This document shows, piece by piece, positions 37,234-40,851 of a stretch of DNA of 64,000 bases. Position 1 is the stretch's first letter. Each line of letters begins with the position of its first letter. Below the pieces are notes generated by a model. The model made no database searches, was not told where the DNA came from, and saw nothing but the letters and a program-made list of their open reading frames with translations. The DNA comes from SAR202 cluster bacterium bin87 (GTDB lineage: Bacteria; Chloroflexota; Dehalococcoidia; Lucifugimonadales; UBA3495), in contig MPNC01000005.1 in NCBI GenBank assembly GCA_002238825.1, forward strand, positions 186,001-250,000, in the 5' to 3' direction. The translations under genes were made by a program, and so were the position numbers.

Positions 37234-37914
37234 ATGCTGAGATCAGATTACGAACGCGATCTGTCGAGCTTGCAGGCCGACCTGAGGGAAATGGCAACGC
37301 ACGTCGAGCAGGCGACCCGCCGCGCCCTCAACGCGCTGGAAAACCAGGACCTCGAGCTGGCGCAGCAGATCATCGACGAGGATGACCATATCGACCGGCT
37401 GCAGGACGCCCTGGAAGACAAGTGCGTTACGCTGATGGCGACGCAGCAGCCGATGGCCATCGACCTGCGGGCATTGATGTCGGCGGTCCACATCGGGGTG
37501 GAGCTGGAGCGGATGGGGGACTACGCCGAGGGCATTGCCAAGATCTGCCTTAGGATCGGCGACCAGCCGCTGCTCAAGCCGCTGATAGACATCCCCCGGA
37601 TGGCGGACCGGGCGCTGACCATGCTCGACGAGAGCCTCCAGTCGCACGCCAACCGGGATGAATGGCTGGCGCGCAAAGTGTGCCAGGATGACGATGCGGT
37701 CGATGATTTGTACGACCAGATCTACAGGGAACTGCTGACGTACATGCTGCAGGACCCGCGCAATATCGAGCGGGCCACCTACCTGCTTTGGGTAGCCCAC
37801 GACCTGGAACGGATCGCCGACCGGGCCACCAACATTGCGGAACGGGTCATGTGGCTGGTTTCCGGGCACACGGTGGGAACCGGAAGCATGAAATCCGACC
37901 GGTCCCTGCGCTGA
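37234..37914 (+). CDS. phoU: Phosphate signalling protein PhoU
   Basis: MLRSDYERDLSSLQADLREMATHVEQATRRALNALENQD; AHDLERIADRATNIAERV. Confidence 0.93.
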   Translation: MLRSDYERDLSSLQADLREMATHVEQATRRALNALENQDLELAQQIIDEDDHIDRLQDALEDKCVTLMATQQPMAIDLRALMSAVHIGVELERMGDYAEGIAKICLRIGDQPLLKPLIDIPRMADRALTMLDESLQSHANRDEWLARKVCQDDDAVDDLYDQIYRELLTYMLQDPRNIERATYLLWVAHDLERIADRATNIAERVMWLVSGHTVGTGSMKSDRSLR

Positions 37915-37968: not shown

Positions 37969-37997
37969 TTGACAATTCCCGACCTCGACAGTATAGT
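37969..37997 (+). promoter_or_regulatory. Sigma-70-type promoter for the leader/reductase transcript
   Basis: TTGACA (37969-37974), 17-nt spacer, TATAGT (37992-37997). Confidence 0.8.
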
Positions 37998-38005
37998 TTT
38001 CGCAA

Positions 38006-38080
38006 ATGCATAGTACTTGCAAAACCATTTGCATCTGCACATGTACCTGTCCCCCGACAGCGGGGGCAGGCAAAACCTGA
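38006..38080 (+). CDS. Cys-rich putative leader peptide MHSTCKTICICTCTCPPTAGAGKT*
   Basis: ATG about 8 nt after the -10 box; Cys codons at 38018, 38030, 38036, 38042, 38048; stop TGA at 38078. Confidence 0.75.
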   Translation: MHSTCKTICICTCTCPPTAGAGKT

Positions 38081-38109
38081 TTAACAACTACAGGTCCGCA
38101 CCTGCGCCC
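38046..38109 (+). promoter_or_regulatory. Attenuator switch region with alternative stems
   Basis: Stem 1:2 CCTGtCCCCC(38046-38055)/GGGGGCAGG(38062-38070); alternative 2:3 GGGGGCAGG with CCTGCGCCC(38101-38109), 8 of 9 pairs; ACCTG(38075)/CAGGT(38091)/ACCTG(38100). Confidence 0.65.
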
Positions 38110-38143
38110 ACCGATTTTGCCGCGCGGCAACGGTGGGTTTTTT
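38107..38143 (+). terminator. Intrinsic terminator inside the leader
   Basis: CCCACCG-att-TTGCC-GCGC-GGCAA-CGGTGGG followed by TTTTTT, 27 bp before the reductase start. Confidence 0.88.
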
Positions 38144-38169
38144 ATTGCCAGAGCTCGGAGGAGGACACC

Positions 38170-40005
38170 TTGACCAGCCCAGCGCAAATTCCCAACCAGG
38201 AAGACATCCACGAATCGAGTATGCGGCTGGCTGCCGATGCGCCAGCGATCATCCCGTTCATGGAGGACGAGATACAGCGGTTCGACGCGGAGGTCGACCG
38301 ATTCCGTACGGGAGAATTGGACAACACCGTGTTCACACCCTTCCGCCTGCGCCAGGGCGTGTACGGGCAGCGTCAGGCGGACGTGCAGATGATCCGGGTC
38401 AAACTGCCCGGCGGAATAATATCGGCGGACATGCTGGACAGCTTCGGCGACATCACTGAGAAATACGCGCCGTTGCAGAAGGGGCACATCACCACGCGGG
38501 AGAACATCCAGATACACCACATCCCGCTGGAGCAAACCTCCGAAGTGCTGCGCATCCTCGGTAGCGTGGGCCTGTCGACCCGCGAGGCGTGCGGGAACAC
38601 GGTCCGCAACGTCGTTGGCCCTCCCACGGCCGGCGTAAGCCCTGAAGAGGTGTTTGACCCCACGCCCTATCTGACCGCCTACGTCCGTTTCGGCGTGCGC
38701 CATCCCATCACGCAGAACTTCCCGCGCAAGTTCAAGTCCGCGTTCACCGGCAACGACCAGCGCGACGAAGTAGCCGCGGCGATCCAGGACCTGACATTCG
38801 TGTCGCAGTTCAAGGAAGTGGACGGCGAGCAGCGCAAGGGTTTCAAGGTCTACTGCGGCGGCGGCACGTCGATCATGCCGCGGCTGGCCAAGCCGCTGTA
38901 CGAGTGGGTGTCGGAAGACGACTACCTGCGAGTGGCCCTGGCGGTCTGGACGGTATTCAACAACGCCGACATTCTGCGCAAGAACCGCATGATGGCACGC
39001 CTGAAGGTCCTGATCGACAAGATCGGCCTGGACGAATTTCGGGACATGGTGGACGCCGAACTGGCCAACATCGGGCCGATCGATTTCCGGCCGCTGATGA
39101 CCGCCGAGGATATCCAGCACGAAGAGCCGCCGGCACAACCGTCCACCGGGAACGGCGACCACAGCGAACCTGAATACCAGGCCTGGATACAGTCCAACGT
39201 GGAGGCGCAGCGACAGGATGGCTACCACGTAGCCCACATCAAAATAGTGCGCGGCGACCTCACGCCGGAACAATTCCACGGGCTGGCCGACATCGTACGG
39301 AAGTACACCGGCGGCAAGGCGCGCACCACCCAGGAGCAGAACCTGGTGCTGCGGTGGGTTCCCACGGGCCACCTGCACGACGTCTGGACAGCGTTGAAGT
39401 CCCTGGACCTTGGGGAGGCTGGCCATAGCCACATCAGCAATGTGGTTTCCTGCCCGGGAACCGACAGCTGCAAGTTGGGCATCACCGCCTCCATGGGCCT
39501 GGCGCAGGCGCTGCGCACCGAGATGGCGGGCTGGAACGGCCTGTCCGAGGACAAGGGCGTGGGCGACATCCGCATCAAGATGAGCGGTTGCCCCAACGGC
39601 TGCGGCCTGCACCACATCGCCAACATCGGCTTCCACGGAGCGGCGGTCAAGGGAGCGGAAGGGCAGCAGATTCCGGCTTATGAACTGTTCCTGGGCGGCA
39701 ACTACGGCGACAACCAGGTGGAAGACTCCCGCATCGGCACCCGGGTGCCACGGGTCAAGGTGCCGGCCAAACTGGTTCCGTCGGTGTTAAAAGACATCGT
39801 TAGTTATTACAAAGACAACCGCGCCAACGATGCCGAGCGGTTCAACGACTTCCTGGACCGGGTTGGTCTTGAAGATATGACCGCGGTGGCGGCCAAGGCC
39901 CAGGAGATCGGGCACGAGGCCGAAGGCGGCGGCGAGATGTACTTCGACTGGGAGCGCACCAACCAGTACGTGCTGGAGCGCGGCGAAGGGGAGTGCGCCG
40001 TTTAG
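38170..40005 (+). CDS. Siroheme/[4Fe-4S] nitrite/sulfite reductase (sulfite favoured by leader logic)
   Basis: NVVSCPGTDSCKLGITAS; KMSGCPNGCGLHHIANIGFHG; RBS GGAGGAGG then TTG. Confidence 0.9.
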   Translation: MTSPAQIPNQEDIHESSMRLAADAPAIIPFMEDEIQRFDAEVDRFRTGELDNTVFTPFRLRQGVYGQRQADVQMIRVKLPGGIISADMLDSFGDITEKYAPLQKGHITTRENIQIHHIPLEQTSEVLRILGSVGLSTREACGNTVRNVVGPPTAGVSPEEVFDPTPYLTAYVRFGVRHPITQNFPRKFKSAFTGNDQRDEVAAAIQDLTFVSQFKEVDGEQRKGFKVYCGGGTSIMPRLAKPLYEWVSEDDYLRVALAVWTVFNNADILRKNRMMARLKVLIDKIGLDEFRDMVDAELANIGPIDFRPLMTAEDIQHEEPPAQPSTGNGDHSEPEYQAWIQSNVEAQRQDGYHVAHIKIVRGDLTPEQFHGLADIVRKYTGGKARTTQEQNLVLRWVPTGHLHDVWTALKSLDLGEAGHSHISNVVSCPGTDSCKLGITASMGLAQALRTEMAGWNGLSEDKGVGDIRIKMSGCPNGCGLHHIANIGFHGAAVKGAEGQQIPAYELFLGGNYGDNQVEDSRIGTRVPRVKVPAKLVPSVLKDIVSYYKDNRANDAERFNDFLDRVGLEDMTAVAAKAQEIGHEAEGGGEMYFDWERTNQYVLERGEGECAV

Positions 40006-40023: not shown

Positions 40024-40851
40024 ATGGCGAAAGCATCTCTGAACGGCAGAGTGCTGGCCTTCGTCGAGGCCCGGATGCCCGACGAAATGGCCAGCCTCAT
40101 CCGGCGGCACGGAGGCGTGCCCGTCGGTGCGCCGGTTATGCAGGAACATTACCTGCAGGATAGCCCGCAAGTGCAGCGGGCTATCCTGGACGTCTGCGAG
40201 GAGCGCGTGGACACCGCCATCTTCCTGACCGGAGTTGGCGCCAGCGCGATGATGGGCATCGCGGATGGCATGGGCCGGCTGGCGGAATTCGAAGAGGCCC
40301 TGCGCAAGATCACGGTGGTGGCTCGCAGCCCGAAACCGGGACGAATTCTGCGCCGCCACAAGATACCCATCGACATCATGCCTCCGGAGCCGTACACCTC
40401 CCGCGACCTCATCGCCGCGATGCGGGACCTCGAGCTCGAAAGCAAGCGGGTGATTTTCCAGCGCTACGGCGGCCCGGACTCCGAGCTTCCCACCTACCTG
40501 AGGGAGCAACGCGCCGATTACGAAGAGCTGACGCTATATGACTGGGGTTTGCCCGACGACACCGCGCCGGTGGTGGACCTGATCGACCGCATGGCGGAAG
40601 GTGAAATCGACGCCCTGGCTTTTACCAGCCGGCCGCAGGTGCCGAACCTGATGACCATCGCCGCCGACTCGGGGCGCGAAGAGTCCCTGCGGGGAAGCCT
40701 CGGCGGAACCGTGACAGTGGCCTCGGTGGGCCCGGTATGCACCCGCAAGTTGCAGGAGCTCGGCATCGGGGTGGACGTGGAGCCGGAGCACCCTCACATG
40801 GGCAACCTGGTGATGGCGGTGGCGGAGTATTTCGGCGAAGGGGCTCATTGA
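40024..40851 (+). CDS. hemD: Uroporphyrinogen-III synthase-like protein
   Basis: LNGRVLAFVEARMPDEMASLIRRHGGVPVGAPVMQEHY; DALAFTSRPQVPNLM; VASVGPVCTRKLQELGI; 19 bp after the reductase. Confidence 0.8.
   Translation: MAKASLNGRVLAFVEARMPDEMASLIRRHGGVPVGAPVMQEHYLQDSPQVQRAILDVCEERVDTAIFLTGVGASAMMGIADGMGRLAEFEEALRKITVVARSPKPGRILRRHKIPIDIMPPEPYTSRDLIAAMRDLELESKRVIFQRYGGPDSELPTYLREQRADYEELTLYDWGLPDDTAPVVDLIDRMAEGEIDALAFTSRPQVPNLMTIAADSGREESLRGSLGGTVTVASVGPVCTRKLQELGIGVDVEPEHPHMGNLVMAVAEYFGEGAH

Follow-up and report, generated by a model that had tools for sequence, protein, structure and literature searches.

A siroheme/4Fe-4S reductase gene of the NirA type, situated in the 64 kb stretch of DNA analysed here (the window, which belongs to a 4.96 Mb assembly), is preceded by what is very probably a cysteine-responsive, ribosome-mediated transcription attenuator of the trp type. 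This is argued from the anatomy of the leader, its conservation, covariation and predicted energetics. A sequence-only reading had proposed the device for this single locus. That view can now be refined, since the same genome has a second copy, placed before an operon of E1 and cysteine synthase, and similar leaders are found before other sulfur genes in the order. The window derives from the Dehalococcoidia, mostly marine bacteria about which little is known.

In the proposed mechanism the ribosome would start directly on the leader ATG at the 5' end of the transcript. With ample Cys-tRNA it would arrive at the stop codon and cover segment 2 of the leader, so that segment 3 would be free, the terminator (3:4) would form and transcription would end before the reductase gene. 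If the leader is not translated, 1:2 would form and the terminator would form too. When Cys-tRNA is scarce, the ribosome would wait at Cys13 or Cys15 and cover segment 1, upon which 2:3 would pair, the terminator would be disfavoured and RNA polymerase would read into the reductase gene and hemD. The same device would also control the operon of E1 and cysteine synthase at another place in the genome. The start of the transcript, leader translation, termination and the response to cysteine are what we infer from the sequence.

Anatomy of the reductase leader and its genes

All features of the window described here are on the forward strand. A sigma-70-type promoter was predicted at 37969-37997 by a consensus scan (11 of 12 matches), with a -35 box TTGACA (37969-37974), a spacer of 17 nt and a -10 box TATAGT (37992-37997). 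It is followed by an ORF of 24 codons (38006-38080), the translation of which, MHSTCKTICICTCTCPPTAGAGKT and a stop codon, has Cys at residues 5, 9, 11, 13 and 15, exactly as the sequence-only reading had given it. Five Cys in 24 codons were reached in none of 20,000 composition-preserving shuffles. Because its ATG is only 8 nt past the -10 box the leader ORF is probably leaderless, and the 5' end of the transcript would coincide with the ATG or be only a few bases away from it. The same type of promoter is present in nearly all reductase leaders of the family, with the start codon 5-9 nt past the -10 box; in the leaders of the E1 gene this distance is mostly 8-12 nt.

Segment 1 (CCTGTCCCCC, 38046-38055), which overlaps the last Cys codon, pairs in the MFE fold with segment 2 (GGGGGCAGG, 38062-38070), the switch strand. 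The latter begins 14 nt from the first base of the last Cys codon, which puts it just outside the reach of a ribosome that has stalled on this codon. Its alternative partner is segment 3 (CCTGCGCCC, 38101-38109), the antiterminator partner, the last 3 bases of which open the terminator arm and are taken up in the 2:3 pairing. The intrinsic terminator (38107-38143) is composed of CCCACCG (38107-38113), CGGTGGG (38131-38137) and TTTTTT (38138-38143), and the likely ribosome binding site (RBS) of the reductase, GGAGGAGG (38157-38164), is located 3' of it. Both pairings and a strong terminator before the reductase gene had been claimed with these positions and letters, and all were correct, with one G.G mismatch in the 2:3 pairing. 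The leader fold beats 200 of 200 shuffles (z -3.7). The window was also scanned on both strands with a detector that combines the promoter, a start codon 4-12 nt past the -10 box, an ORF with a Cys pair and a terminator; the reductase leader was the sole match in the 64 kb. With regard to a T-box or another known RNA, no Rfam family reached its gathering score in the window, and the leader itself gave only a chance-level match (anti-hemB, E 1.9).

The reductase (38170-40005, 611 residues, TTG start) contains the Pfam domains NIR_SIR and NIR_SIR_ferr. Its best NCBIfam family is NirA, at a score below the family cut-off, and the closest solved structure is that of M. tuberculosis NirA (1zj8), which is a sulfite reductase despite the deposited name. 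The nearest orthologues (84-94% identity) are found in metagenome-assembled genomes of Dehalococcoidia/Chloroflexota. At 18 nt past the reductase gene follows hemD (40024-40851, Pfam HEM4), encoding uroporphyrinogen-III synthase, which likely belongs to the same operon and makes a siroheme precursor. Judged by homology, the regulated genes, here a member of the sulfite/nitrite reductase family and at the second locus E1 and cysteine synthase, would serve the synthesis of the sensed amino acid, and the fit of the reductase to the cysteine pathway asserted by the sequence-only reading is upheld to that extent. A CysH-family PAPS/APS reductase was not found in the whole window genome by a search with PF01507, a domain that was present in 14 of 14 control genomes. 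Sulfite may come from another source in this genome, for instance from sulfonates.

Conservation and predicted switching

The leader is kept by relatives, as had been supposed: a Cys-rich short ORF precedes the reductase gene in all 35 family genomes that have an orthologue, the window included (34 were read directly and 1 by the RNA model only; 13 others share the genus). In alignment A1, which comprises 33 reductase leaders, the ORFs have a mean of 4.1 Cys in 20 codons; counted over all of these leaders, the frame of the ORF holds 136 Cys codons and the two remaining frames hold 24 and 3. All 33 keep the last Cys as well as the Cys that stands two codons ahead of it. Conservation of the last Cys codon is partly structural, because the codon falls within segment 1. 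The Cys at -2 lies outside segment 1 and is invariant in 63 leaders, in which TGT and TGC vary (TGT in 20 and TGC in 10 of the E1 leaders, where this codon is likewise outside the stem). This mixture implies that the meaning of the codon is kept and not the nucleotide.

Within the same 33 leaders 95.2% of the terminator cells are paired and 21 cells are double changes. These occur in 5 of the 7 pairs, from A-U to G-C as well as from G-C to A-U, and the covariation score was reached in none of 500 shuffles. The antiterminator 2:3 is paired in 91.6% of the cells versus 39-58% when slid by 1-3 columns, and the protector 1:2 in 86.7% versus 37-66% when slid. Of what had been expected from orthologues, conservation of the Cys codons, the terminator and the antiterminator was borne out; compensatory change was found in the terminator, whereas it is weak for 2:3 because the strand barely varies. 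Diverged leaders form 2:3 with different letters: GGGGGCAGAC/GTCTGCGCCC in L036, GGAGAGGA/GCCTCTCC in L040 and GAGGGGGAG/CGCCCCCTC in L043. In 9 of 11 leaders examined by a simple pairing search, the last Cys codon and the start of segment 2 are 11-15 nt apart, a distance that a ribosome on this codon falls just short of covering, and segment 2 finds its partner at or beside the terminator arm; among these 11 no clear segment 2 partner was obtained for L028 and L033.

The conservation pattern also bears on the possibility that the nascent Cys-rich peptide senses another signal, such as a metal, oxidation or a persulfide, and arrests the ribosome, in which case the RNA switch would be the same but the signal would not be Cys-tRNA. 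CxCxC motifs are able to bind metals, yet the number and spacing of the Cys residues differ between leaders, and 5' of the end that encodes the stem the peptide is conserved at Cys codons only. Cys-Pro is nearly invariant, as a sensing peptide might require, but segment 1 accounts for the Pro codons. Similarly, one leader at the level of the order (L119) stands before a peroxiredoxin gene, whereas the targets are mostly genes of cysteine and sulfur assimilation. A sensing peptide is given a small chance on this evidence, and the supply of Cys-tRNA is retained as the signal of the attenuator.

A different peptide, MR(F/L)xDDLFHLC, with few Cys, was observed in three reductase leaders of other families of the order (L036, L040 and L130). 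It is conserved through synonymous changes and is possibly an arrest peptide. The DDLFHLC of these three leaders had no match in 344 genomes of the class, a sample that lies outside the carrier families.

The influence of the ribosome was calculated by masking 10 nt downstream of the A-site codon and determining the free energy of terminator formation. This explicit calculation was used instead of an equilibrium-only fold, which separated the stalled and free states poorly. For the window leader the terminator energy was -9.4 kcal/mol with the ribosome at Cys5, -8.1 at Cys9, -8.0 at Cys11, -4.4 at Cys13 and -1.1 at Cys15; a ribosome at the stop codon gave -9.3. In the control, the E. coli trp leader, the values were -2.9 kcal/mol at Trp10, -2.1 at Trp11 and -9.2 at the stop codon, a profile that the window leader is predicted to reproduce. 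As a weak terminator is predicted only for a ribosome at Cys13 or Cys15, only the last two Cys would be control codons; at Cys5, Cys9 or Cys11 the 1:2 hairpin or the terminator is predicted to stay intact. The earlier proposal that stalling on the Cys codons masks segment 1 thus holds for Cys13 and Cys15 and fails for the first three in this position scan. Its other half, that a ribosome at the stop codon covers segment 2 and lets the terminator form, agrees with the predicted -9.3 kcal/mol, and under constrained folding the leader switched as foreseen. The placement of the control codons fits as well, in that a stalled ribosome is predicted to cover segment 1 and not segment 2, and a ribosome at the stop codon to cover segment 2.

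In the stalled state of the window leader the equilibrium still leans slightly towards the terminator (-1.1 kcal/mol), and likewise in E. coli trp; the window 2:3 overlaps just 3 bases of the terminator arm. The stalled value of the window is higher than those of 95% of the shuffles of its own spacer, a modest result if taken alone. Across the leaders, the terminator is weaker in the stalled state than at the stop codon in 29 of 33 reductase leaders (median -3.7 stalled, -8.9 at stop) and in 25 of 26 E1 leaders (median -1.5 stalled, -7.8 at stop). The stalled terminator is also weaker than with shuffled spacers in 28 of 33 and 25 of 26, respectively. A Wilcoxon value of about 1e-6 was obtained for the stalled-state comparison, which is not an independent-sample probability since the genomes are related. 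The predicted switch was absent in L015, L031 and L032-L034.

Translational attenuation as in mycobacteria would operate differently, a ribosome stalled on the Cys tract freeing the RBS of the next gene. According to PMC13236596, this kind of attenuation is used by the leaderless polycysteine uORFs of M. smegmatis, the closest relatives that have been studied experimentally. Here, however, a conserved and covarying intrinsic terminator with its U-tract lies between the leader and the gene, and the predicted pairing of the reductase RBS is about 0.7, constant over the ribosome positions. Sequestration of the RBS was rejected, as the fold prediction shows no switch at the RBS and stalling does not expose it. 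Control at translation is accordingly judged very unlikely, and attenuation of transcription remains the preferred reading.

Second copy and related leaders

A covariance model of the reductase leaders was searched in 247 genomes of the order. In most family genomes a second site was found, 30 of which (the window genome and 29 relatives) were aligned, before a ThiF/MoeB/MoeZ-like E1 gene. In the window genome this second attenuator is located at C42:509298-509429 (L104:999-1130) and has a leader ORF encoding MSPAQIALVACACPRT and a stop codon (L104:1002-1052). It is followed by the MoeB/ThiF-like E1 gene (L104:1169-2017) and, 3' of E1, by a cysteine synthase gene (L104:2065-3009; TIGR01136, above cut-off), while the gene of an Rrf2-family regulator, distantly CymR/IscR-like, is directly 5' of it. 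The terminator arm is CCTGCGTCC in L104 and CCTGCGCCC in most relatives. As segment 3 of the E1 leaders is the terminator arm itself, 2:3 and 3:4 fully exclude each other. Terminator covariation in the E1 leaders beats 500 of 500 shuffles, and the share of paired 2:3 cells is 87%, versus 28-58% when slid. With the spacers tested, exactly two sites were found in the window genome. A degenerate promoter-ATG-TGYNNNTGY pattern was present in 46 of 60 relative genomes, and the reversed pattern in 0. In G022 (L118), a family genome without a close reductase orthologue, the attenuator is still present before the E1 gene.

The preservation of the leader at a second, unrelated locus makes it scarcely credible that the hairpin just ends transcription of the pst-phoU operon 5' of it or acts as a constitutive terminator in the leader, with the Cys-rich ORF as a by-product of a C-rich stem: although the phoU-like gene ends at 37914, just 5' of the leader, and the last Cys codon overlaps segment 1, a strong promoter lies between that gene and the leader, and the TGT/TGC variation at the invariant Cys -2 falls outside segment 1.

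In other families of the order, leaders were found before CysH and Sat (L205, L234), before CysH (L206, L121), before a TauE/SafE-type gene (L215) and before DsrE2 (L117), with Sat, TauE and the CysH of L205, L206 and L234 assigned by eye. A strict detector, which would miss a leader if another gene of a longer operon stood between it and the reductase, gave 5 matches in 60 reductase upstream regions of more distant families, 4 in the same order and 1 in another order of the class (L149). This suggests that the device at the reductase gene is mainly confined to the order. The balance of these observations tilts towards an order-wide cysteine regulon in the Dehalococcoidia that is run by ribosomes and not by a DNA-binding protein, in which leaderless polycysteine ORFs with their own intrinsic terminators would control sulfite reductase, E1-cysteine synthase, CysH-Sat and sulfur-compound transport in parallel.

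Some further leaders were noted on their own. A leader MKNI.NSNCCCCTPLNGVI with a terminator stands before a YeeE/YedE-type sulfur transporter gene in other families (L120:1915-2029, L122 and L131). The leader before the peroxiredoxin gene (L119:509-634) encodes MINSINVYNCSCCTDPAGSGY and is followed by a terminator; it is a weak model match (E 0.014). L204 and L208 have leader-like Cys-rich ORFs (MKVGSFCTVNVVCRCTHF and MRYNPCCCMCP, each ended by a stop codon) and then terminator-like hairpins. A few matches were dismissed as chance, such as the one in L210, which adjoins an apparent 16S rRNA gene.

Comparison with known systems

No Cys attenuation or leader-peptide attenuation described for Chloroflexota emerged from the literature search, for which subscription papers were mostly out of reach. 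The sequence-only reading had known of none for this lineage either, and the precedents come only from elsewhere. Some Chloroflexi are predicted to have leaderless genes, at about 5% of the genes in 4 of 12 genomes (PMC3160421). The mycobacterial precedent which the sequence-only reading had mentioned was confirmed, and a second close one has to be added to it. The first prediction of cys leader peptides dates from 2005 and concerned Mycobacterium and others, with no conserved terminators (PMC1262725); mycobacteria were also found to have leaderless uORFs rich in Cys (PMC4633059). The polycysteine uORFs were shown to be Cys-responsive by Canestrari et al. (2020, Mol Microbiol, doi 10.1111/mmi.14498), as cited in PMC13236596, PMC9031893 and PMC9094748, the first of which describes them as translation attenuation. 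The additional precedent is in Rhodobacterales, where a Cys-codon uORF with an intrinsic terminator was predicted before cysS (PMC8632094).

With a T-box riboswitch the proposed attenuator would share the sensing of uncharged tRNA and the control of an intrinsic terminator, but it would have a translated ORF instead, and it matches no Rfam family above chance. The Rhodobacterales uORFC-8-2 resembles it in the Cys-codon uORF, the U run, the intrinsic terminator and ribosome-mediated attenuation, all of them predicted. It differs in controlling cysteinyl-tRNA synthetase, in its tandem CysCys, usually at codons 14-15, and in belonging to alphaproteobacteria, and its description mentions no leaderless feature (PMC8632094). 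The mycobacterial polycysteine uORFs have in common with the present leaders a tract of Cys codons and the occurrence of several operons of cysteine metabolism with a leader of their own; their start at or near the transcript start would be a further likeness, as predicted for the present leaders from the promoter position. They are translational and without conserved terminators (PMC1262725), whereas the conserved intrinsic terminators found here imply transcriptional control. If the present reading is true, the polycysteine principle of mycobacteria recurs here, but its output is termination in place of translation. The attenuator would also offer a genetic readout of cysteine supply in uncultured Dehalococcoidia, whose part in sulfur cycling is under discussion.

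The E. coli trp attenuator likewise has a leader peptide with codons for the end-product, mutually exclusive 1:2, 2:3 and 3:4 pairings, an intrinsic terminator and a matching energetic profile in the same calculation. Unlike it, the window leader would sense Cys and not Trp, is probably leaderless and not dependent on a Shine-Dalgarno sequence, and is unrelated in sequence and phylum. Classical attenuation would be extended to Chloroflexota, and the combination of a trp-type switch with leaderless initiation is directly testable with a reporter. New in the present case are the phylum, the combination of a leaderless ORF with an intrinsic terminator, and the multi-operon regulon.
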